Origin: a virus
Reading direction: 5' to 3' (one strand)
DNA: 37,253 nucleotides
Virus record (IMG/VR): IMGVR_UViG_3300044490_000259
Span: 1 to 37,253 of that record
Each line of letters begins with the position of its first letter. Positions within the stretch are counted from its first letter, which is position 1. This document shows positions 2,563-33,055 of the stretch, piece after piece. Under the pieces are notes generated by a model. It saw only the letters and a list, made by a program, of their open reading frames with translations. It was not told the origin of the DNA and did no database searches. The position numbers and the translations under genes were made by a program.

Positions 2563-3048
2563 ATGCCTGGTGCGCCGAAGTCCCGAGTCAAGCAGGCCGC
2601 CGCGAATCGAGGCCCGATCCAGCGCCGCAGCGTCGCCGCCTGGCAGGACGAGGTCCTCATCGACGCCCTGTGCGCAGACCTCGCCGTCGGGTGCTCCTAC
2701 GAGACCACCGGACTGGCCCACGGGCTCGGACCGTCGACCCTCGGCGGATGGGTCCGCGACGCCGTCGCCGCGTGCGACGCGCTCGCTGCCGACCCGGACA
2801 AGGACGTCGGCATGGACCCGGCGAAGCTCGCCGCTGCGGTGCGTCTAGTGCGCGCGCACGCTGGGGCGTCGCAGGAGCTGGAGCGAAAGCTCCACGCCGG
2901 CGAGGTGTGGGCCCTTGAGATCCTGTCTCGGCGCCACCGGCAGACGTGGGGCCGGAGCGACACGATCGCAATCGGTAGCGCGGATCCAGGGCGCGAGGTG
3001 GCCGTCCTGCTCGGGGCGCTCGCCGCGGTGGCGAAGCCGGACGCGTGA
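2563..3048 (+). CDS. terS: Terminase small subunit
   Basis: 161 residues from ATG 2563. The small terminase recognises the packaging site and recruits the large subunit. The N-terminal half is basic, with a helix-turn-helix-like stretch (about 40-70: LAVGCSYETTGLAHGLGPST then LGGWVR), which fits the family's DNA-binding domain. The second half is helical and could oligomerise (...LERKLHAGEVWALEILSRR, QTWGRSD). It overlaps the following large-terminase GTG by 4 nt. Position at the head of the late operon supports the call, although small terminases are too divergent to be certain by eye. Confidence 0.8.
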   Translation: MPGAPKSRVKQAAANRGPIQRRSVAAWQDEVLIDALCADLAVGCSYETTGLAHGLGPSTLGGWVRDAVAACDALAADPDKDVGMDPAKLAAAVRLVRAHAGASQELERKLHAGEVWALEILSRRHRQTWGRSDTIAIGSADPGREVAVLLGALAAVAKPDA

Positions 3049-4511
3049 GCGCCCTCACCGTCGCAGGCCTCGCGCCCGGCATGAGCGAGTGGCAGCGGGA
3101 CCTTCTGCGCTACGTGCTCCGCCCCCAGGGCGGCGCCATCGCGGGCATCGCAGGTGGGAAGAGGTGTGGCAAGTCCGTGGCGGCCTGCGCTGCCGCGGCG
3201 ATGCTGGCCGTCACCTGCGACGTGCCGGCCAATCAGATCGCCGTGGTCATGGACACCTTCAGCCGCCTCCGAGACGTGCACCTCCCCATCATGTCGCAGC
3301 TCGCCCCATCGGTCGGGGGAAGGTGGTGCGCGGGGGACCACGAGTATCGATGGCCGGGTGGGGCCGTCGTGCGCTTCCGACACCTGGACGTCGCGGGCTC
3401 GCCCACCGCCGGCAACCCGCTCGAGGGCCAGACCCTCTCGGCCATCGTCGGGGACGAGCTCCAAGAGGCGCACGTCGACTATGGGACCATCTTCCGGGAA
3501 CGGCTCTCGCGCGACCTGCCCGTGCGCGTGATCGATGCGGACGGGCGCGACCGCGAGGTCATGCGCGCGCCCGTCCTTGTCATGATCGGACTGCCGATGC
3601 GGACGTGGTGGATCTCGCTGGCCCGCGACCTCGGCGGGCGCGTCTACCGCCCCAAGACCCGGGACAATGAGGCGAACCTGGCCCCCGGCTACGAGGCCGC
3701 GCTGAGGGCGTCGATGACGGAGCGCTACGCCCGGTCGATGCTCGACGGCGAGGATTGGACGCCGGAGGGGCAGATCCTCTACGGCTTCAGCGCGCAGGAC
3801 TATCCGGCCGGCAACGTCCTGCGCGGGGTCGTGCTCGACTTCCGCCGCATGCGGACGATGCTCTCCGGCGACCTCGGCTACCGTTCGCCGCACTTTCTCC
3901 TGCACGTCGAGGTCTGGCCGGGCGTCTGGTGCGTGGTCCGCGAGTGGGCGCCCGACGGCGTGGCCCTCCCCGACCTCTGCGACGTCCTCGCGGCGGACGT
4001 GTGCCCGCGGCGAGACTGGTCTCCCGGGTGCGGACGGCTCCCGGTGGACGAGCTGGTGGTCGACCCGGCCGGCGCCGCGACGAACGACCAGACGGGCCAC
4101 CCCGACCTGGAGCTGCTCGCCCGCCCCCAGCCGCACGGGCTCGGGCTCTGGCCGATGGTGGAGCCGCAGGGCCCGCGGCGTGCCGTCGTGCCCGGGCTCC
4201 AGCGGATGAACGTCTCACTGGAAAAGCGTCTGCTTCTCATGTCGGGCGGCGTCTACGACGGTGGCCTCGCCGCGCCGGAGGGCAAGCGGACGCTCATCCG
4301 GTGCGTTCAGGGCTACCAGTGGGATCCGCGCGATCCGAGCAGGCCGCACAAGCCGAGCCACGACACGGTCTCTCACGGGGTCGACGCGTGGCGCTATGGC
4401 TGGCGGCGCGTCGGGTGGGACGCGATGCCGGTCCCGGCGGATGTGGGGCCGGTCGCGACGCGCGAGCCCGAGGGCCCCTCGCTGTGGGACGCGGCACGGG
4501 ATGCGCGGTGA
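3045..4511 (+). CDS. terL: Terminase large subunit
   Basis: 488 residues, GTG start at 3045. This is the DNA-packaging ATPase and nuclease. Walker A is GGKRCGKS (about 37-44) and Walker B is IVGDELQEAH with D137-E138. The C-terminal nuclease half shows acidic positions expected of the RNase-H-like domain: SGDLGY, VVDPAGAATND and HDTVSHGVDAWRYG. Length is typical. It is coupled to the small terminase (4-nt overlap) and followed by a 118-bp gap with repeat motifs before the portal gene. The call is firm; the packaging mode (cos or headful) cannot be told from this sequence alone. Confidence 0.93.
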   Translation: MSALTVAGLAPGMSEWQRDLLRYVLRPQGGAIAGIAGGKRCGKSVAACAAAAMLAVTCDVPANQIAVVMDTFSRLRDVHLPIMSQLAPSVGGRWCAGDHEYRWPGGAVVRFRHLDVAGSPTAGNPLEGQTLSAIVGDELQEAHVDYGTIFRERLSRDLPVRVIDADGRDREVMRAPVLVMIGLPMRTWWISLARDLGGRVYRPKTRDNEANLAPGYEAALRASMTERYARSMLDGEDWTPEGQILYGFSAQDYPAGNVLRGVVLDFRRMRTMLSGDLGYRSPHFLLHVEVWPGVWCVVREWAPDGVALPDLCDVLAADVCPRRDWSPGCGRLPVDELVVDPAGAATNDQTGHPDLELLARPQPHGLGLWPMVEPQGPRRAVVPGLQRMNVSLEKRLLLMSGGVYDGGLAAPEGKRTLIRCVQGYQWDPRDPSRPHKPSHDTVSHGVDAWRYGWRRVGWDAMPVPADVGPVATREPEGPSLWDAARDAR

Positions 4512-4524
4512 CCCGTCGCCGCCG

Positions 4525-4577
4525 ATGCTACGATTTAAAGCACAGACTTGCACCCACATGATGCGATTTGTAGACTC
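4525..4577 (+). promoter_or_regulatory. Late-promoter-like repeats, copies 2 and 3
   Basis: The 118-bp terminase-portal gap (4512-4629) holds two motif copies: ATGCTACGATTTAAAGCACA at 4525-4544 (degenerate) and ATGATGCGATTTGTAGACTC at 4558-4577. The second closely matches the copy before the small terminase. A TTGCAC at 4548-4553 sits 17 bp before TAGACT (4571-4576), a weak but correctly spaced promoter. This would allow extra transcription of portal and capsid genes. Confidence 0.4.
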
Positions 4578-4629
4578 TGGCCGGACACCCGCTCACCCGA
4601 CGCCCCAAGGTGCGGAGATGTGACCCGTC

Positions 4630-6015
4630 ATGCGCCTGAGCCCTTCGACCGCCACGCCTGAGCGCGCCGCCCAGATGCGCGATGCGAGCGTGCGGCCGGA
4701 AGCGCCGCTCGGCAGGTCGGGCAAGCCCCTGGCGGGCGGGCGGGTCGCAGGCTTCGAGCACAACGTGCGGCTCCAGGGCCCGCAGAAGCTCATGGCGGCC
4801 TATCGCAAGGCGGAGCGCAACCCGGCAGTGGCCGCCGGGTGGTCCTGCATGCGGTCCTTCATGCTCTCGGCCGAATGGGACGTCGAGGCGGCCGACGACT
4901 CCGACCTTGCCCAGCGCGCGGCGGCGCACGTGCGCGCCAACCTGGGCATCGGTCGCACGAAGAGCGCGACCGGGAAGGCCTGGGAACGGCTTCTCGCGGA
5001 GTTCCTCGCCGTCCGTAACCGCGGCTTCGGCTGGTGGGAGCTTGTCTGTCGCGAGGGCGCGGACGGCCAGTGGTACACGCACTGCCTCTGGCGCGACCCC
5101 GGGTCCGTCTCTGCGTGGATCGTCGACGACTGGGAGTGCCTGGTCGGCATCTGCCAGTCCGCAGGCTGGCTCACGGGATCCGCAGAGATCCCCATGTCCC
5201 GCGTGCTCTACATGGCGCGCGAGGCCGAGGGGACGAACTTCGAGGGGATCGGGCTGCTCCGGAGCGCGGAACCGCTGGCCCGCGACCACGACCGGACCAT
5301 GCAGGCCCTCATGGTCGCGGTGCAGCGGTGGGCCATCGGCACGCCTGACCTGGTGATGAACCGGGAGCGGTGGCGCCAGACGCACCCGGGCGGGACAGAC
5401 CAGCAGTACGAGGCCGAGGTCGCCGAATGGAAGCGGTGGCTTTCCAAGTACGCATCCTTCGAGCACGGCTTCATCGTCCGCGAGGACCACGTCACGCTCG
5501 GGACATTCGGTGGTGATGGACAGAACTCCACCGAGTTCGCGAACACCCTGAACCTCCAGGCGCGACTGATCCTCACCGCGTACCTCGCGCAGTTCCTCGC
5601 GCTCGGTTCGGAGGGCTCCGGCGGCTCGTACTCGCTCGGCGAGACGCACGCAGAGACGGCACAGCAGGCCGGCGAGAACGAGCTGGAGGCCGTGCGCGAC
5701 GACCTCACGACCAGCCTGATTCCGCGGATGGTCCGGTGGGGCCTCGGCGCGGACGTGCCCGACGAGGCGATGCCGCGGCTGACCTTCTCGGGCCTTCGGG
5801 CGCCGCTGTGGGTCTCGCTCATCGACCGCTTGCCGGCCGCTTTCTCCGCGCTCGGCATCACGCCGCAGACCGCGCTGGAGACTGAGGTCTTGCGCGAGCT
5901 GGGCTTCAAGGCCGAGGCCATCGACCGCAGCCCGGCGGACCGACTGCGTGGCACGGCTGGGCGCCCGCCGGTCGCACCGCCGCCCGGCCCCGTGGCCATC
6001 CGGGGGGCGCCGTGA
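4630..6015 (+). CDS. Portal protein (Mu gp29 / DUF935-like)
   Basis: 461 residues from ATG 4630. Portal proteins form the dodecameric ring at the capsid vertex through which DNA enters and leaves. The sequence follows the DUF935 pattern: SCMRSFMLSAEWDVEAADDS near 75-95, VRNRGFGWWEL, then WRDPGSVSAW, a RVLYMAREAEGTNFEGIGLL segment in the middle, and a YLAQFLALGSEGSGGSYSLG wing followed by a helical region to the end. The C-terminus is Pro/Ala-rich and probably disordered. It overlaps the protease GTG by 4 nt. It is preceded by the repeat motifs at 4525-4577, so it may have its own promoter. Confidence 0.85.
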   Translation: MRLSPSTATPERAAQMRDASVRPEAPLGRSGKPLAGGRVAGFEHNVRLQGPQKLMAAYRKAERNPAVAAGWSCMRSFMLSAEWDVEAADDSDLAQRAAAHVRANLGIGRTKSATGKAWERLLAEFLAVRNRGFGWWELVCREGADGQWYTHCLWRDPGSVSAWIVDDWECLVGICQSAGWLTGSAEIPMSRVLYMAREAEGTNFEGIGLLRSAEPLARDHDRTMQALMVAVQRWAIGTPDLVMNRERWRQTHPGGTDQQYEAEVAEWKRWLSKYASFEHGFIVREDHVTLGTFGGDGQNSTEFANTLNLQARLILTAYLAQFLALGSEGSGGSYSLGETHAETAQQAGENELEAVRDDLTTSLIPRMVRWGLGADVPDEAMPRLTFSGLRAPLWVSLIDRLPAAFSALGITPQTALETEVLRELGFKAEAIDRSPADRLRGTAGRPPVAPPPGPVAIRGAP

Positions 6016-22216: not shown

Positions 22217-24022
22217 CTAGGCGTCGAACCACCCCACCGGGAACCCCATGAGCCACGAGACCCAGCCTGGGTTCAGGTGGCTGCTGGTCGCCTGAAGCGC
22301 TCTGCGCACGCGCCCCCCGGCCAGCCACCGCCTCGGCCGCGCGAGGATGCGGCGCTTGTGATGGGGCGTGACGGACGACGTCGTAAGCCGAGCGACTACC
22401 TCACACAGCGGCTGAGCGTTGCGCTCCGCCGTGGCGTCGGAGGTCAGCCCCGAACGCCAGTCGGAGGCCCGCGGCGTGGGAACAGCACCGCGGGCGATGC
22501 GCTCCAGCGACGGGCGGTGGCCTGACGGGCGCCCCGCGTTCACACCGCCCTGCGATGAGCCGTAGGGCGTCGCCGTGGGAGTCGGCAACAGGCCGGACGC
22601 GATCGCGCCTTCGATGTCCATGTGCGTCGCATCCATGCTGCGCCCGGTCGCGTTCCGCGGAGTCGGTACTGAGCCGGCGATGCGGCCTCTGGCCACGGCG
22701 TCGTCCAGATTCGAGCGTCCGGAGTCCAGGCGCCGCGCCCCTACGGCCGCAGATGGCGCCCCACGTCGAGGGTCGCCCAGCCGTGCGATCGGAGACGGAA
22801 CCGATGTGCGGCCCCGGCCGCCATCCTCTCGCACGAAGTCTGTCAGACTCAACCCGGGGCTCGCCGCGCTCCCGGGTGTGCATCTCGATCCGGCCGCGTC
22901 GGCGTCGCTGGCCGTAGGCGTGGGCGCCGTGGTTCGCAGCGCCGCCCCCAAGAGGGTCTGGTTGCCGCGCTGGTATGTAGGCGACATGCGTTCGCCATCG
23001 GCAGCGGTCGGCGTGGGCACCACCCCGCGGCCGTACAGCCCTCGCACCGCTAGGTCGAGCGGCGTCAGGCCGGGCTCGGAGTTGGCCTCCTTGCCCCGCG
23101 CATAGCCCTGTGGGGTCGGGACCGGATGAAACGGTCCGGGCATCGCGTCGTGCCTCGTTCGTGCCGTCCGCGCATCGCAGAGCGAGCGTGTGGCGTACAG
23201 GCCGCCCGCGACGAAGGCGCCGCACGCCGGCACCTCTACGGCGTTGGCATCGCCGAAGAGATCGACCGTGACGGGCTCGCCGCCGAGGACGGTCCCCACG
23301 CATCGCCATCCGCGCGGCTCCGGCCGGTCGCGGAGCGCCCGTGCGACACACGCGCCCACGACCTCGGCCACCTGCGGCACGACCGCGTTGCCGAGAGCCT
23401 TCAGACGTGCGCGGCGCACGGCGGGGCGCATGTCGGCGCGGCTCACGGTGCGCGGCACGCCTGCGGGCTCCTTCGACCACAGGCCCCCACGATGTGCCCT
23501 GAACGCGCTCTCGACCACAGCGGGCGGCGCGAACACTCCGACGCGGCCGAGCCGGTGCGCGACGACGAACACACGGCTCCGGATGTGCAGCGCGCCAACG
23601 GCCATCGCGGACAGCGTGGTCCACTCCACGTCGTAGCCGAGCCCTGCAAGCCCCTCCACGACCGTAGCGAGTCCACGCTTGACCAGCGCGCCCACGTTCT
23701 CGATGACGACCACTGAGGGGCGTACGAGCCCGACCACGCGGAGCATCTCGAACCAGAGACCGGAGCGGGCGCCGGCGAGGCCTGCACCCTTTCCGGCGAG
23801 CGACACGTCCTGACACGGGAATCCGCCGCAGAGCACGTTGCAGACTGGCGGATCGGTCAGCGTCCGCACGTCGTCGTAAATGGTCGCGGCCGGCCACCGC
23901 ACGGCGAGCACGCGCCGGCAGAACGGGTCGGCCTCGCAGGCCCACGCGAGCTCGCAGCTCAGCGCGCGCTCCAGCCCGAGGTCGAGGCCGCCGATGCCGG
24001 AGAACACGGAGCCGAGCCTCAC
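22217..24022 (-). CDS. DNA (cytosine-5-)-methyltransferase with rearranged C-terminus
   Basis: 601 residues, GTG start at 24022. It transfers methyl from S-adenosylmethionine to C5 of cytosine. Motif I is VFSGIGGLDLGLE (6-18), motif IV with catalytic C70 is GGFPCQDVSLAG, motif VI is ENV (108-110), motif VIII is IRSRVFVVA, and motif IX/X is RLKALGNAVVP (206-216). Only about 50 residues separate VIII from IX, leaving little room for a target-recognition domain. The remaining 380 residues contain six PTP elements (such as VVPTPTAAD, LLPTPTATPYGSSQGG, AVPTPRASDW) and end NPGWVSWLMGFPVGWFDA. In related phage enzymes, to my knowledge, the PTP and GFPxGW sections usually lie before the LGN motif, so the order seems altered. 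A likely role is protection from host restriction. Confidence 0.88.
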   Translation of the reverse strand: MRLGSVFSGIGGLDLGLERALSCELAWACEADPFCRRVLAVRWPAATIYDDVRTLTDPPVCNVLCGGFPCQDVSLAGKGAGLAGARSGLWFEMLRVVGLVRPSVVVIENVGALVKRGLATVVEGLAGLGYDVEWTTLSAMAVGALHIRSRVFVVAHRLGRVGVFAPPAVVESAFRAHRGGLWSKEPAGVPRTVSRADMRPAVRRARLKALGNAVVPQVAEVVGACVARALRDRPEPRGWRCVGTVLGGEPVTVDLFGDANAVEVPACGAFVAGGLYATRSLCDARTARTRHDAMPGPFHPVPTPQGYARGKEANSEPGLTPLDLAVRGLYGRGVVPTPTAADGERMSPTYQRGNQTLLGAALRTTAPTPTASDADAAGSRCTPGSAASPGLSLTDFVREDGGRGRTSVPSPIARLGDPRRGAPSAAVGARRLDSGRSNLDDAVARGRIAGSVPTPRNATGRSMDATHMDIEGAIASGLLPTPTATPYGSSQGGVNAGRPSGHRPSLERIARGAVPTPRASDWRSGLTSDATAERNAQPLCEVVARLTTSSVTPHHKRRILARPRRWLAGGRVRRALQATSSHLNPGWVSWLMGFPVGWFDA

Positions 24023-24830: not shown

Positions 24831-25409
24831 TCACCTCTCATGTCCGCCGCTCCCGCTAGCCGCGAGCGTCGCCGGCCGGCTCACCCGCGCGTGCCAGTGC
24901 CAGCCGACGACACCGAGGTCATCGGCCGGCCGCACCGTGCGGCGACACTCGCTCCCTACGTGTTCGACCAGCTCGGCGGGCGTGAAGGTCCGCGCGCCCG
25001 CCGCCCCGAACGAAAGCACGATGAGCGCCACGGCGCCACACCGCTCGGCGTCTCGTAGCTGGCCCCACTGCTCGGGCCCGAGTCCGCCAGGAGCGCCGAC
25101 CGACCGGGCGTGCGCGTCGATGCCGGAGTCCCACCCGCCGGGGCCCGCGTGACTCTTCGCCTCGATGAGCACGGCGCGCCCGTCGCCGAGGTGGCCCACG
25201 AAGTCGACGCCCTGGGGACCCGCGAAGCACGCGCGGAAGCACGACCGTCCCCGCGCGTCCGGGCGCACCGGGCCGAGCACTCGCGTCGGCGTCCCCACCC
25301 GGCGGACGCATGTGAGATCCTGTCGCGCGAGCTGGGCGTGGTAGGCGTCCAGCGCCGCCTCGAATGCCTCGCCGTGGGCGCGGGCCGCTCGGGCCGATGC
25401 GCTGCTCAT
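24831..25409 (-). CDS. RecU-like Holliday junction resolvase / PD-(D/E)XK nuclease
   Basis: 192 residues from ATG 25409. The nuclease motif is GPQGVDFVGHLGDGRAVLIE followed by AKS, with D69, E83 and K85 as the expected D-E-x-K active site, and an N-terminal helix AHGEAFEAALDAYHAQL typical of RecU. The aromatic/cysteine segment GRSCFRACFAG precedes the core. RecU proteins resolve four-way junctions during recombination and repair. A phage resolvase would debranch replication or recombination intermediates before packaging. It lies in the early operon with replication and recombination genes. A general restriction-type nuclease is the alternative. Confidence 0.75.
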   Translation of the reverse strand: MSSASARAARAHGEAFEAALDAYHAQLARQDLTCVRRVGTPTRVLGPVRPDARGRSCFRACFAGPQGVDFVGHLGDGRAVLIEAKSHAGPGGWDSGIDAHARSVGAPGGLGPEQWGQLRDAERCGAVALIVLSFGAAGARTFTPAELVEHVGSECRRTVRPADDLGVVGWHWHARVSRPATLAASGSGGHER

Positions 25410-26197
25410 GGTGAGTCTCGGCCGCTGCTCAGCAGCGACGCGACGACGGCACTGCCGGCCTTGGGCACGCCGCGCACCACGAGCCATCCGGGCAGGTCGC
25501 CCTGGATGGCGGTGCGGAGCTCGCCGAGTGCCATGTCTCGCACGTCTGGCAGGTCGCGGAAGCGCATGCGGAACGACGGCGGACCGTCCTTCGACAGCGC
25601 CACGTCGAGCCCGATGGACACCTCGTACCTCTCGGCGTGGCCCAGCCAGAGCGGGACCTTGATGCCGAACTCCTTGGGGATTTCGGCCTTTGTCCCCTTG
25701 GCGCCCTCCTTGACGCGGAAGACCGTCTCCGCATCGTTCTCCAGGTCGGCGTCGAACTCCACCTCGACTCTGGCCTTGAAAGCCGACACCGCCGCGAGCG
25801 TGCTCTTGCTCACGAGGTCTCCGGCCCGGTCCTCGATGAAGTTGCGGAGCCTGATGGGGCTCATGTCCTGCCCGACGGACTTCTGCCACGCCTCGATGGC
25901 CGTGGACGGATCGAGGACCATCCGGACCAGAGAGTGGTCGGCTCCTTTGATTTCGTCGATGACCAGGCGCACGCCGCTCGCGTCCACGTACACGGCGGAG
26001 TCGGCAGATCCGTGTATGTTGGCGTAGGCCACGAACGAGTCGCGGCCCGTCAGCGTGTGCAGGCGGCAGGGGCCGCGGCCGTCCACGTGCACGAGCCGCG
26101 AGCCGTCGGCCACAGCCAGTGTATCACCCAGCGCCACGGCCTGAGAGTGCGGCCTGAACCGCTCCAGCAGTTCTTTGATCGTCTCGATGATGCTCAT
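25406..26197 (-). CDS. DUF2303 family protein (YfdQ-like)
   Basis: 263 residues from ATG 26197. The order of elements fits DUF2303: SFVAYANIHGSADSAVYVD, AIEAWQKSVGQDMSPIRLRN, FIEDRAGDLVSKSTL, then a PKEFGIKVPLWLG strand region and SFRMRFRDLPDVRDMALGEL. The biochemical role of the family is not established; members are found in phage early and recombination operons. It overlaps the RecU-like start by 4 nt. The upstream in-frame stretch contains a different gene's complement and was rejected. Confidence 0.75.
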   Translation of the reverse strand: MSIIETIKELLERFRPHSQAVALGDTLAVADGSRLVHVDGRGPCRLHTLTGRDSFVAYANIHGSADSAVYVDASGVRLVIDEIKGADHSLVRMVLDPSTAIEAWQKSVGQDMSPIRLRNFIEDRAGDLVSKSTLAAVSAFKARVEVEFDADLENDAETVFRVKEGAKGTKAEIPKEFGIKVPLWLGHAERYEVSIGLDVALSKDGPPSFRMRFRDLPDVRDMALGELRTAIQGDLPGWLVVRGVPKAGSAVVASLLSSGRDSP

Positions 26198-26202
26198 GTG
26201 TT

Positions 26203-26568
26203 TCAGGCTCCCTTTTCCGCCGCGGCGTTCGCGCGGATGACACGCTCGATGTCGAGCTGGGTTGTACCGGGGTCGATGCGCATGTCCACGAAGACCTCGC
26301 CGCCATCCACGAACGCGGTGTCGCCCACCTCTGGGCGCGGCACAGCCACGTCCACCTTGTGCGACGTGCGCATCGTGTGCTCGCCGTTGGGTTCCAGCTT
26401 GAGCTTGATCGTGATGGAGCGGGCGCCCGTGCGCTGCGGCTTCTCGTTCATGCCGGCGACGCAGTCCGCCAGCACCTGCTCGATTCCAGCATTGATGTCG
26501 TCGATGAGGCGGCCACCGGAGAACGTCTGCGCGCTCAACGGGACGTGCACCTTGTGTTTCGCTACCAT
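26203..26568 (-). CDS. Conserved early protein, function unknown
   Basis: 121 residues from ATG 26568, with a strong AAAGGAGAG ribosome-binding site upstream. It contains PLSAQTFSGGRLIDDINAGI, a strand-rich middle (RSITIKLKLEPNGEHTMRTS) and a short acidic strand (GDTAFVDGGEVFVDMRID). It is separated from DUF2303 by 5 nt, so the two are probably translated together and may act as partners. No family was recognised. Confidence 0.65.
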   Translation of the reverse strand: MVAKHKVHVPLSAQTFSGGRLIDDINAGIEQVLADCVAGMNEKPQRTGARSITIKLKLEPNGEHTMRTSHKVDVAVPRPEVGDTAFVDGGEVFVDMRIDPGTTQLDIERVIRANAAAEKGA

Positions 26569-26905: not shown

Positions 26906-28129
26906 TCACCGCGTCCCCGGCTCGAAGATGCCGAGCAGCGGCTGCACGGAGCCGTCGGCGAAGTGGGCGTCGAGCCACACGTCCCCGGTCGGTTCCGTGC
27001 CGGTCCACCCGTGTGGCCAGGTGCCGGCGGCGAGCAACTCGCGAACCCGGGCCTCTTCCTCCGCGTCGAGCAGCGAGACGGGCGGCCGGCCGGCGATGGC
27101 AGCTCCATCATTGACCCGCCGCTGGATGTCAAGCACCTGGTCGAGCGCCCACGCTCTGGCCTCCAAAGTGATCGGCCCGAGGCGCTGCTGGTTTTTGGAG
27201 AGAGTGCCGTCGGCGCGGGCCTCGCCACCCGGCTGTCGCAATCGCATGATCGCCTTGCGCAACTCGCGCCACAGCGGGCGCAACTCCTTGAGCGGCTCCA
27301 GGTATCTCCACGCCGGCCGCGCAATCACGTTGTCGAGCGCCGTGTCCTTTTCGGTCAGGGGGCAACCCACGCAGCCGGTCCGAGCATTGATCTCTTCGGC
27401 CTCCTCACCGCCATATGCGTCGGCCAAGGCTGCCGTCGGCCAGCCACCGAAGTCCGCGTGCGGAGCGTAGAACTTGAGCCAGTCCCAGACCTTGCAGACC
27501 CGCCAGTGCAGGATCGGGGCGAGCGTGTCGCAGAGCGCGTCGGGCAGCGTCTCCTGATACCAACCCTGCCCGCACTCGGCCCCGTCTTTGGAGCATGACA
27601 TCGCGATGCGACCGTCGCGGATCGCGCTCTCCCCCTGGCGGACACCGGTCAGCGTGAGCACCTTCTCCTGGCGCTCGCCGAAGATGCGTTTGAGCTCGGC
27701 TGCCATCGGGTCGACTTTGATCTGCCGGGTACACCATCGGAGCGTGTTGTTGTTCGGCGGGGGCACGCCGCGCCCGAGGATGTAGACGAGGAAACGCTTG
27801 TCGAGCGGGGCCCGCACGGTGCGCACGTCCACTCCGCGCTCTCGCAGCTTCGCCTGGATCTCGAGCGCCGATGCGTAGAGCGGCAGGAGTTCGAGCCCCG
27901 TGTCCGCGTAAAGCACAGTGAGCGTCTCCGGGTGCTGAATACGGCCAGCGTCGAGCAGGTGGAAGAGCAGTGTGAGCAGCGTCGTGCTGTCCTTCCCACC
28001 GCTCCAAGCGACGGCCCAGTGCCGATGTGTCGGGCCGTACGAGGCCAGCGAGGCCACGGTGAGATCGATGCTCTCTGGGATCTGCAAGCGGCTCGCAGTC
28101 CCGACAAACAGATCGTCCTGTCGCGTCAC
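26906..28129 (-). CDS. DndC-like / PAPS reductase family PP-loop protein
   Basis: 407 residues, GTG start at 28129 overlapping the upstream stop (GTGA). The PP-loop SGGKDST is at 43-49, followed by RWCTRQIKVDP (131-141), GVRQGESAIRD (162-172) and RTGCVGCPLTEKD (250-262) with C253-x-x-C256. This combination is seen in DndC and related PAPS-reductase-fold sulfur-transfer proteins, where the cysteines may hold an iron-sulfur cluster. DndC incorporates sulfur into the DNA backbone as phosphorothioate, but the partner genes dndA, B, D and E are not in this window. Other possibilities are sulfur modification of nucleic acid bases or a PAPS reductase-like enzyme. The fold call is strong; the reaction is inference. 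Confidence 0.75.
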   Translation of the reverse strand: MTRQDDLFVGTASRLQIPESIDLTVASLASYGPTHRHWAVAWSGGKDSTTLLTLLFHLLDAGRIQHPETLTVLYADTGLELLPLYASALEIQAKLRERGVDVRTVRAPLDKRFLVYILGRGVPPPNNNTLRWCTRQIKVDPMAAELKRIFGERQEKVLTLTGVRQGESAIRDGRIAMSCSKDGAECGQGWYQETLPDALCDTLAPILHWRVCKVWDWLKFYAPHADFGGWPTAALADAYGGEEAEEINARTGCVGCPLTEKDTALDNVIARPAWRYLEPLKELRPLWRELRKAIMRLRQPGGEARADGTLSKNQQRLGPITLEARAWALDQVLDIQRRVNDGAAIAGRPPVSLLDAEEEARVRELLAAGTWPHGWTGTEPTGDVWLDAHFADGSVQPLLGIFEPGTR

Positions 28130-29130
28130 TTCGCTCCCCCCAACGCCAGAAATCGTGACTCTGGAAACATGTCCCTCCTGATTTCGAGCGGCGTTCCCGT
28201 CTCCTCCACTCTCCGGCCGTCGATACACACCCAGCCGTCGTCCCATCCGGTGCAGCCTGCGCCGCTACACCGGGGACACGGCGGCCAGTCTCGCTCCGCC
28301 TCCACCGGCTCCGTCGGTCCCGGCGGAGCCTTCCCGACCGACAGACTCGCTGGTCCGCTCCGCCTGCCACGCGCGCTCGCCGGCATCGGTGGCAGGTCTG
28401 GAAGCGGCCCCTCGCCCGCGAGCTTGCGGAGGAACCCGAGGGACGGCGAACCGTTGCGGGTCTTGTCCACCGCCGCGCCGATGGCCCACCGGACGCGCTC
28501 GGCGCCGTGGGCCTGGAGCAGCTCCGCCACCGCGTCGACCACGGCGGGCGGAGGGAACAGGCCGGGAGCTCGACGCCCCATCCCGCCCTGGGTCCGCCAC
28601 CACGCATCGACCAGCCCCCCGACCTCGCCGGAATCGACAGGGGTTTCACGTGCGTGCGCGGGCGCGGCGGTGGCGGCGTCTGGAGAAGGTCTGGAGAAGG
28701 TCTGGATCTCCTTATTAGGGGGTGCAGGGGGGGTGTCCGCGTGGCGGACAAACATGTCCGTATTGCGGACATTCGTGTCCGCGTGGCGGACATCGGTGTC
28801 CGTATTGCGGACATCCGGACTGTCCGTATTGCGGACACTCTTGTCCGCGTGGCGGACATCAGGGGTCTCGCCGGTCCCCTCATGTCCGTCACCCGGACCG
28901 CCGGACGGAAGTCTCGCGACCCACCGCGCTCCGACCTTCTCCGCGTACCCCTCCGACACGACGTCCTCGAGGAGCTCGTACGCCGTCGACCGCGAGGTGC
29001 CCGTGAGCTGGGCGAGCCGTTGCGCGCCGGCGCCGTCGGGGTGGTGGTAGCGGACTGCGATCGCCATGAGCTTCCCGAGCGGCGCGAGGCCGCTGCGCAG
29101 GATTTCGCCGATGTCGGAGCCGAAGGACAC
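28126..29130 (-). CDS. Replication initiator-like protein containing the iteron array
   Basis: 334 residues, GTG start at 29130 with GGAGA upstream. The N-terminal winged-helix-like part includes LMAIAVRYHHPDGAGAQRLA then QLTGTSRSTAYELLEDVVSE (about 21-60). Residues 91-132 are heptad-like repeats DVRHADK-SVRNTDS-PDVRNTD-TDVRHAD-TNVRNTD-MFVRHAD, encoded by the 17-bp palindromes at 28734-28858. A helical DnaD-like part follows (VVDAVAELLQAHGAERVRWA), then a cysteine knuckle CPRCSGAGC near 285-293. In lambda, gene O similarly contains the origin iterons in its middle. The DNA-binding and origin roles are inferred from this analogy. Confidence 0.75.
   Translation of the reverse strand: MSFGSDIGEILRSGLAPLGKLMAIAVRYHHPDGAGAQRLAQLTGTSRSTAYELLEDVVSEGYAEKVGARWVARLPSGGPGDGHEGTGETPDVRHADKSVRNTDSPDVRNTDTDVRHADTNVRNTDMFVRHADTPPAPPNKEIQTFSRPSPDAATAAPAHARETPVDSGEVGGLVDAWWRTQGGMGRRAPGLFPPPAVVDAVAELLQAHGAERVRWAIGAAVDKTRNGSPSLGFLRKLAGEGPLPDLPPMPASARGRRSGPASLSVGKAPPGPTEPVEAERDWPPCPRCSGAGCTGWDDGWVCIDGRRVEETGTPLEIRRDMFPESRFLALGGAK
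28734..28858 (+). repeat. Iteron array: six 17-bp palindromes (putative replication origin)
   Basis: Six perfect copies of TGTCCG-N5-CGGACA start at 28734, 28755, 28776, 28797, 28821 and 28842. Spacers alternate: cgtgg, tattg, cgtgg, tattg, tattg, cgtgg. Start-to-start distances are 21, 21, 21, 24 and 21 bp, two helical turns apart, so all sites face one side of the DNA. A degenerate copy TGTCCGTCACCCGGAC is at 28883-28898. The lower-GC stretch CTCCTTATTAGGG lies just beside the array near 28708-28720. The array is translated in frame as the heptad repeats of the initiator. Likely role: binding sites for the initiator and the phage origin. Confidence 0.85.
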
Positions 29131-31788: not shown

Positions 31789-31997
31789 GCGCGCACAACT
31801 GGCACCACTACGAGGGCGAGGCCCGCGCCAAGGTGCTCCTCGAGCGGGTCCGCGAGTTGAGGGCCGGCACCGAGGAGGAGGCCGTCGCAGCCCTCGCCGA
31901 CATCATCGACGAGGGGGTCCTGGCGCAGCTCGTCTACATCGAGGCCCTCGACATCGCGAAGGGTGAGGGCGACGTGGCCGGGAGGTTCTCGGCATGA
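31785..31997 (+). CDS. Small helical early protein, function unknown
   Basis: 70 residues, GTG start at 31785 inside the previous stop. The sequence (SAHNWHHYEGEARAKVLLER, AALADIIDEGVLAQLVYIEA) is all-helical. No family recognised. Its stop overlaps the exonuclease ATG (ATGA), so translation is coupled to it. Confidence 0.65.
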   Translation: MSAHNWHHYEGEARAKVLLERVRELRAGTEEEAVAALADIIDEGVLAQLVYIEALDIAKGEGDVAGRFSA

Positions 31998-33055
31998 GCG
32001 CCGACATCGACTCCATCCCCGTCGGCGCCCGCGTCATCGACGCGGCCGGCCGGATGTTCGAGCGAACGGGCACGGCCTGGCGCGGGCTCACGCCGGCCGG
32101 CAAGCCGACGGGCGACGTCCTCACGGACAAGGTCATGCAGAAGCAGTCGCTCCGCGTCGTCGAGGGCCCGGCAGCCCGCGTCGCAGAGCCGGCCGTCGCC
32201 CCGCCGACTCTGCCCACCGGAATCGTCCACGGCCTCACCTTCGAGGAGTACAACGCCGACCCGGGCCTGCGCAGCTCGGCGCTCAAGGTGATGCGCCAGT
32301 CGCCGGCCCACTACCGGCATGCCCTGACGCACCCGAGGACGTCGAGTCCGATGCGGCTGGGGACCGCCGCGCACGTCGCGACTCTGGAGCCGGATCGATT
32401 CCGGCGGTCGTTCGCGGTGTGGGACCGCAAGACCGACACGGGCCGCAGTCAGCCCAGGTCAGGAGCCGCGTGGGTCGAGTTCGAGGCCGCGGCCGTTCGG
32501 CGCGGACAGACGGTCATCACGGAGGCGGAGCGCGACGGCGCGCTCGCCATCGCGGAGGCAGTGCGATCCAACCCGGACGCCGCCCGGTATCTCCGCGCGG
32601 GCGAGCCGGAGGTCTCGATGTTCTGGAATCGATGGGGCCGCCGCTGCAAGGGACGAGCGGACTGGACGACGATGCTGGACGGCGCCGACTGCGTGGTCGG
32701 GCTCAAGACAGCGCGAGCCGTCGAAGAGCGCGCGTTCGGCTCGCAGGCCTGGAAGCTCGGCTACCACATGCAGTGGTCGTTCTACCACGACGGGTGGCAG
32801 GCCATTCACCGACGGCCCCCCTTCATGGTGGAGATCGTCGTGGAGTCCGCCGAGCCCCACTGCGTGGCCGTCTACGAGCTCGGCGAGGACTGGCAGGACA
32901 AGGGCCGCGAGGACCTGGAGGCGTGCGCGGCGCGACTCGCCGAGTGCGAGCGCACCGGGCTGTGGCCCGGCCCGGTGGACACCGAGCGGCCTCTGCCGCT
33001 CCCGGCCTGGCTGGGCGAGACCTACGAGCTGACTGTGACGAGCGCGGAGGACTGA
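31994..33055 (+). CDS. RecE / exonuclease VIII-like 5'-3' exonuclease (PD-(D/E)XK)
   Basis: 353 residues from ATG 31994 with GGAGG eight bases upstream. The first 75 residues are a variable, Pro-rich region. The nuclease domain includes RSSALKVMRQSPAHYRHAL, LGTAAHVATLEP, CKGRADWTTM with D223, ADCVVGLKTA with D232 and K238, and YHMQWSFYHDGW with Q260 and Y264. This is the order seen in the RecE C-terminal nuclease. RecE-type enzymes chew 5' strands to expose single-stranded ends for annealing, enabling phage recombination. The following gene is the expected single-strand partner. Catalytic positions agree; substrate preference is inferred. Confidence 0.85.
   Translation: MSADIDSIPVGARVIDAAGRMFERTGTAWRGLTPAGKPTGDVLTDKVMQKQSLRVVEGPAARVAEPAVAPPTLPTGIVHGLTFEEYNADPGLRSSALKVMRQSPAHYRHALTHPRTSSPMRLGTAAHVATLEPDRFRRSFAVWDRKTDTGRSQPRSGAAWVEFEAAAVRRGQTVITEAERDGALAIAEAVRSNPDAARYLRAGEPEVSMFWNRWGRRCKGRADWTTMLDGADCVVGLKTARAVEERAFGSQAWKLGYHMQWSFYHDGWQAIHRRPPFMVEIVVESAEPHCVAVYELGEDWQDKGREDLEACAARLAECERTGLWPGPVDTERPLPLPAWLGETYELTVTSAED

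Follow-up and report, generated by a model that had tools for sequence, protein, structure and literature searches.

The gene at positions 22217 to 24022 on the minus strand of the window, i. e. of the whole stretch of 37,253 nucleotides of viral DNA that was analysed (IMG/VR virus record IMGVR_UViG_3300044490_000259), is probably a single-chain, de-overlapped alpha-beta fusion of a split C5-cytosine methyltransferase. It has a GTG start and encodes 601 amino acids, with the stop codon included in the coordinates. In its product the motifs I-VIII are followed by motif X, an array of PTP/PSP modules and finally motif IX; this order results from the location of X at residues 206-216 and from the tail ending in IX. 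In the related genes, one stretch of DNA would give rise to alpha (I-VIII, X) from frame 0 and to beta (PTP modules, IX) from frame +1. In the window gene, the +1 frame of alpha no longer encodes beta; instead, a beta-like segment with PTP modules and IX follows in frame after a linker of ~65 residues.

Reading frame and catalytic half of the probable fusion gene

A single uninterrupted frame of 601 codons spans alpha, linker and tail, and motif IX is not located on a separate polypeptide. The plus-strand translation of 22217-24022 is broken by stops. The GTG start shares the sequence GTGA with the stop of the preceding ORF. In codon scoring, frame 0 was the top sense frame through alpha, the linker, the PTP region and motif IX. 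Judged by its codon use, the tail is genuine coding sequence rather than a chance ORF, since frame 0 scored best throughout it.

The original prediction had assigned the gene to the cytosine methyltransferases. This was confirmed by a match of Pfam DNA_methylase (PF00145) to residues 1-158 (E 3e-34) and by the invariant motif residues. TIGR00675 was passed as well (113.7 bits vs the cut-off of 100.65), and in PHROGs the ORF matched phrog_363 at residues 1-224 and phrog_1008 at residues 453-600. The alpha part comprises residues 1-235 (23318..24022; like all features of this gene on the minus strand). Within it, motif I (FSGIGG, residues 7-12, 23987..24004) is intact, and so are motifs IV, VI, VIII and X. 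Motif IV (GGFPCQ, residues 66-71, 23810..23827) contains the catalytic cysteine, and its residues P69, C70 and Q71 were invariant in alignments A1 and A5. Invariant residues were also found in motif VI (ENV, residues 108-110, 23693..23701; E108 and N109), in motif VIII (HIRSR, residues 146-150, 23573..23587; R148 and R150) and in motif X (RLKALGNAVVP, residues 206-216; G211, N212 and P216), which together with the following predicted helix (216-231) extends over residues 206-231 (23330..23407). The window protein thus has the hallmarks of a C5-methyltransferase, i. e. motif I, PCQ in motif IV, ENV in motif VI, motifs VIII and X and the class-I methyltransferase fold, and from its sequence it is expected to methylate C5 of cytosine.

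With an alignment of alpha relatives, AlphaFold2 modelled residues 1-160 as a block with pLDDT values of 83-98 and placed the helix of motif X at residues 216-231. VIA-align superposed residues 1-234 on residues 12-326 of M.HhaI (2i9k_A) with a Z score of 26.5, 216 aligned residues and an rmsd of 2.0 Å. The structure-search alignments span residues 1-234 or little more, so they are uninformative on the tail. As judged from the AlphaFold2 model and the match to M.HhaI, alpha is the entire large domain without the small domain.

The canonical order, in which the recognition domain and motif IX lie between VIII and X, was not found in the window protein. Motif VIII is separated from motif X by about 55-60 residues, and neither a recognition domain nor motif IX occurs between them in any frame; indeed, motif IX is absent from every frame before X. 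Hence the claim that there is no room for an ordinary recognition domain after VIII proved right. RLKALGNAVVP had been taken for a combined motif IX/X; the assignment to X stands, whereas motif IX is the terminal LNPGWVSWLMGFPVGW. In the alignment the VIII-X region of the window is altered relative to its relatives, and the +1 motif IX has disappeared from the window alpha together with its coding region.

Modules and motif IX in the tail

The tail begins with a linker between alpha and the PTP modules (residues 236-301, 23120..23317), for which frame 0 had the best coding score. PTP or PSP tripeptides follow at residues 302, 336, 367, 409, 453, 480 and 515, and MGFP is located at residue 592. 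The description of PTP repeats and an MGFP element as a C-terminal tail was therefore accurate. The C-terminal end of the tail reads LNPGWVSWLMGFPVGWFDA, with motif IX (LNPGWVSWLMGFPVGW) at residues 583-598 (22229..22276). The same element stands in frame ahead of X in seven relatives (L069, L122, L129, L131, L133, L137 and L162), where the pattern W[LM]MG[FWLYA]P is found ~22-27 residues before LGN. This is in agreement with the original prediction, which places the MGFPVGW element of related phage enzymes before the LGN motif.

The modules were compared with 135 distinct beta-like proteins. Module 1 (residues 302-335, 23018..23119) and module 5 (residues 453-479, 22586..22666) matched none of them. 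Module 2 (residues 336-366, 22925..23017) has counterparts in four, with 52-73% identity to modules of L216, L205, L172 and L108; module 3 (residues 367-408, 22799..22924) in seven, with about 70% identity to modules of L184, L181 and L194; and the PSP module 4 (residues 409-452, 22667..22798) in three, with 61% identity to a module of L172. Module 6 (residues 480-514, 22481..22585) was matched by 18 proteins, the best four at 61-64% identity, and module 7 (residues 515-550, 22373..22480) by 16, the best four at 51-69%. The counterparts occupy varying positions in their arrays, and those in L172 are arranged in an order that differs from the window. With seven modules the window array is also larger than any in the 135 proteins compared, which have at most six. 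That five of the seven modules recur in beta proteins at differing positions supports the fusion. From these sequences we infer that the PTP modules are exchangeable specificity cassettes, and cassettes of this kind would allow phage methylation specificities to be read from sequence.

When compared with a profile of the +1-frame proteins from 57 relatives, the tail scored 71.0 bits (E 8e-20), with residues 473-600 as the best stretch. As a control, 200 residue-shuffled tails were run, and the sole one listed at E<1 had an E value of 0.49. The family phrog_1008, found in the window tail, was also matched by beta proteins (L172, L184, L205 and L002) and, in L156, by residues 248-438, which are the in-frame PTP-IX-X part of a canonical chain. 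On the basis of sequence, tail and beta are homologous. The suggestion that the gene is a fusion with a separate PTP-repeat protein has thus gained support, with the +1-frame beta protein of related methyltransferase genes as the partner.

The tail is less than a complete beta protein. On visual inspection the linker resembled the beta N-terminus. The N-terminal beta element (SWRTSQ...MRNG), which overlaps VI-VIII in the relatives, had no match in the linker, however; its profile score of -2.8 was below many of 500 shuffles, and since the element is undetectable there, this candidate was ruled out. As a guess, it may be required only when beta is a separate protein. A relic of the overlapping alpha frame in the DNA of the tail (EPRLGLVAHGVPGGVVRR) was also considered and rejected, as it did not beat 300 synonymous shuffles. 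The search for direct repeats inside the gene revealed short weak pairs only and no clear duplication.

Folding was done with separate alpha-only and tail-only alignments. In the model based on the alpha alignment, the tail had pLDDT values mostly below 50. The tail-only model had a mean pLDDT of 52.8, with a block of 65-81 around module 7 and values of 83-89 in the motif IX helix (346-353 of the model). The tail-only alignment matched beta N-terminal parts to residues about 275-295 and 340-375, where the model is meaningless. No docking of the tail on alpha was seen in these models, in which the tail is weakly predicted.

A predicted second protein in the +1 frame of related genes

A tblastn search of phages with the window protein gave 1093 records; identity was always below 60%, and in no record did a single place cover 80% of the query. 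Among the 60 matches listed, query coverage was at most 41%, and it was always the first part that matched; a phage search with the tail alone returned no match. The short relatives, e. g. SG4 gp64, have I-VIII and then X without a recognition domain. In frame +1, the DNA of the short relatives contains an ORF with PTP and NPxWxEWLMGFPxxWT. The annotation includes SG4 gp64 and vB_MoxS-R1 gp29 but not the frames that overlap them: the beta ORFs in +1 (3068-3736 in L002, which is SG4, and 3146-3700 in L005, which is vB_MoxS-R1) are missing from the annotation shown. A long +1 beta ORF in an Amycolatopsis plasmid (L010, 4251-5420) likewise lies outside the annotation shown, the plasmid table being incomplete by its own description.

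A first survey covered 117 loci in which I-VI share a frame with X, and synonymous codons were shuffled within each gene to obtain the expectation. The pattern W[LM]MG[FWLYA]P was found in +1 in 46 of the 79 short loci vs 0.165 expected, but never in +2. Across the 57 loci that have motif IX in +1, the +1 frame contained 6 stops between IV and VI (63.0 expected), 0 between VI and VIII (63.9 expected) and 0 between VIII and IX (68.8 expected). Downstream of X the +1 stops return in these loci (78 vs 57.7 expected), and frame +2 showed no comparable stop depletion.

The final set, made up of 188 distinct relatives whose X is in frame, was searched with a relaxed motif IX, again with a synonymous-shuffle expectation. 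Where VIII and X are at most 130 codons apart, motif IX was present in +1 in 95/109 genes (0.78 expected) and in frame 0 and +2 in 0/109 each. In the two other VIII-X length classes it was present in +1 in 46/64 (0.19 expected) and 9/15 (0.04 expected), with a frame-0 motif IX before X in 9/64 and 0/15 and none in +2. Overall, 150 of the 188 genes have motif IX in +1, and in 29 an IX was recognised neither in frame 0 nor in +1. When the +1 frames of L004, L013, L015, L026, L031, L036, L312 and L328 were read by eye, each contained a divergent IX-like stretch, that of L328 being weakly like motif IX. The beta ORF thus exists in the +1 frame of the relatives as far as sequence can tell, and nearly all of them seem to encode the target-reading half as a second protein in the other frame of the gene; its translation is predicted. 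The window's own +1 frame scored 28 bits against the beta profile. This was given no weight, because canonical enzymes score likewise, the conserved VI-VIII region forcing the similarity.

Other arrangements were encountered among the relatives. In L010, L071 and L196 the alpha frame lacks X, and a +1 ORF contains PTP, IX and X; this could be either a split like that of M.AquI or a programmed frameshift. In L011 (phage Llama and its listed relatives, 4001-4760) a frame change splits alpha into the annotated genes 74 and 75. L081 contains two C5-methyltransferase genes, at 1042-1911 and 3019-3780, in one piece of a viral contig.

The original prediction had named an order shared by most relatives as the outcome that would speak against it. 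Our comparison drew on 328 loci, which yielded 227 distinct methyltransferase genes, and in none of these did motif IX follow X in frame. Motifs were called with regular expressions, duplicates with the same core were removed and genes with an unrecognised motif fell out; 51 of the 227 have X in frame without a recognised IX, 28 were classed as 'other' and 1 was cut. L196 has both IX and X in +1 in this classification. Thus, in this set, an X that precedes an in-frame IX is unique to the window gene, whereas the short relatives as a rule likewise lack a recognition domain between VIII and X. From a scan seeded with the tail, 80 loci were retained, of which 68 have IX in +1 of a methyltransferase by rule, 1 is canonical (L208) and 11 were unassigned; the seven of these 11 that were read by eye were all overlapping. 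L229, L245 and L251 are cut by contig ends. In a scan ranked on the full window protein, the matches to residues 1-600 span far less DNA than a fusion needs. The one long span, L297, is the contig already seen as L081 with its two methyltransferase genes.

A FastTree phylogeny was calculated from 210 I-VIII (alpha) sequences and 158 columns. The window gene pairs with the overlapping gene L187 (support 0.92), and the clade around it has 169 members, of which 135 are overlapping, 32 unassigned and 1 canonical. Since the window gene is nested inside the overlapping clade, the fused order is best read as derived from the overlapping order.

Known enzymes, alternatives and possible mechanism

In M.EcoHK31I (YGGCCR), beta is reportedly read from another frame inside the alpha gene, similar to the 150/188 relatives described above and different from the window gene. 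According to a passage of PMC3404938 on this two-polypeptide enzyme, the large subunit carries I-VIII together with X, motif IX belongs to the small subunit, and the predicted recognition domain is assigned to alpha. Going by this passage, M.EcoHK31I and the window protein share the linkage of I-VIII with X and the location of IX on another element; they differ in that M.EcoHK31I consists of two separate proteins, whereas the window protein is one non-overlapping chain with PTP modules in its tail. M.AquI (CYCGRG), also a two-polypeptide enzyme, is split after motif VIII, within the variable region, according to the same passage (PMC3404938). Its small subunit carries IX and X, in contrast to the window protein, where X is kept with I-VIII in alpha; L010, L071 and L196 resemble M.AquI more.

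Natural changes of motif order within one chain are represented by the circularly permuted C5-methyltransferases, for which a section of PMC5944983 names M.BssHII, M.Alw26I, M2.Eco31I, M.Esp3I and M2.BsaI and reports, from a REBASE search for X before I, permutation sites in the variable region only. As presented there, these enzymes have IX and X before I, unlike the window protein with X and then IX, both after VIII. A circular permutation of the M.BssHII type is ruled out by the positions of I (residue 7), X (206) and IX (583). The idea of a domain permutation in the usual sense thus had to be dropped.

The same kind of PTP modules together with motif IX is found in L150 (Mycolicibacterium) and L156 (Streptomyces), there in canonical order, with the modules in frame between VIII and IX-X of one chain. 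The original prediction had proposed a new way of target recognition for the window protein. Yet it seems more likely that target recognition is conventional and that only the chain connection is unusual, since L150 and L156 carry such modules in the ordinary position. Multispecific phage methyltransferases with tandem small cassettes are exemplified by M.SPRI and the phi3T-type enzymes of Bacillus phages. By this description they resemble the window protein with its putative cassettes, but theirs are located between VIII and IX. A single chain in which X precedes PTP modules and IX appears to be new, and, unless it has been published before, so does the extent of the +1 PTP-cassette partner among phage enzymes. 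We found no published account of +1-frame PTP proteins in phage methyltransferases or of the fused form, a weak absence given thin coverage of the subscription literature.

Alternatively, alpha alone could be a complete methyltransferase of low specificity and the PTP tail an unrelated, disordered or non-catalytic appendage, e. g. for protein binding or anti-restriction. The high confidence with which alpha folds by itself, the mostly low confidence of the tail model and the phage annotations that list short alpha proteins alone as methyltransferases would fit with this. However, alpha lacks the recognition domain and motif IX used by known C5 enzymes, the tail terminates in the motif that precedes X in frame in canonical relatives, and the +1 frame is protected from stops across the relatives, so that we regard this explanation as improbable. 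An assembly artefact that unites the alpha part of one gene with the PTP part of another is about equally unlikely. It has to be considered because the fusion was found only once, on one metagenomic contig, with no second example among the 227 distinct genes and no close relative in a peptide-pattern search of IMG/VR. Against it stand the coding-like codon choice in an unbroken frame through alpha, linker and tail, and the loss of the +1 motif IX and its encoding region from the window alpha, which a simple two-gene chimera need not show.

Slightly less probable still is a degenerate remnant with rearranged motifs that has lost methylation. The motif order is unique in the set examined and the VIII-X region is altered compared with the relatives, but the catalytic motifs are intact, the 601 codons are free of stops with their coding bias kept, and the best matches of five modules to modules of distant phages reach 51-73% identity.

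The alpha-beta fusion remains the preferred reading, and for it the following mechanism can be envisaged. In the M.HhaI fold, the chain exits the large domain once VIII is complete, builds up the small domain, which includes IX, and re-enters with X. In the window protein, alpha would provide AdoMet binding, the attack on cytosine via the catalytic Cys70 and the large-domain fold. The tail would serve as the small domain, with motif IX docked on alpha and one PTP module placed in the DNA major groove as the recogniser. The chain would take X first and then reach the small-domain position from outside via the long linker. Such a path is not forbidden by the fold, since fragments of other C5 enzymes assemble in trans (as stated in a passage of PMC3404938) and many artificially permuted forms of M.MpeI and M.SssI have activity (as stated in a section of PMC5944983). 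As the seven modules resemble interchangeable specificity cassettes, several target sites are possible; the enzyme would then methylate several sites, most likely protecting the phage DNA from restriction. Such protection is the usual role of phage methyltransferases.

More tentatively, with somewhat less than an even chance of being right, most short phage C5-methyltransferase genes could be hidden two-protein enzymes, with a beta protein of shuffled PTP cassettes and IX, usually unannotated, in +1. The window gene could then be a natural 'unzipped' single chain, freed from double coding, which with its seven cassettes methylates several different sites. If this is true, many of the phage 'orphan' methyltransferases that lack a recognition domain have been annotated only by half, and annotation pipelines drop the reading frame in which their sequence specificity is encoded. 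The fused protein is good evidence that the +1 product of related genes partners the catalytic protein, and provides one chain on which this partnership can be tested. Moreover, it suggests that within one chain the recognition part can come after motif X.

In the surroundings of the gene, neither the PHROGs search with 20 window ORFs nor the Pfam search with seven named a restriction endonuclease, and most of the other long ORFs tried in PHROGs were without a match. A remote match to a large terminase was obtained for 3045-4508 (plus strand), and 31994-33052 (plus strand) encodes an exonuclease VIII-like protein. On the minus strand, 24834-25889 has a weak Holliday junction resolvase-like match and 25409-26302 encodes DUF2303 (phrog_210). 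Near the methyltransferase, a 446-aa PAPS-reductase-like protein is encoded at 26909-28246 (minus strand; phrog_12882, E 2e-184; Pfam PAPS_reduct, E 3e-8), and PHROGs places phrog_12882 in the category of auxiliary metabolic genes.
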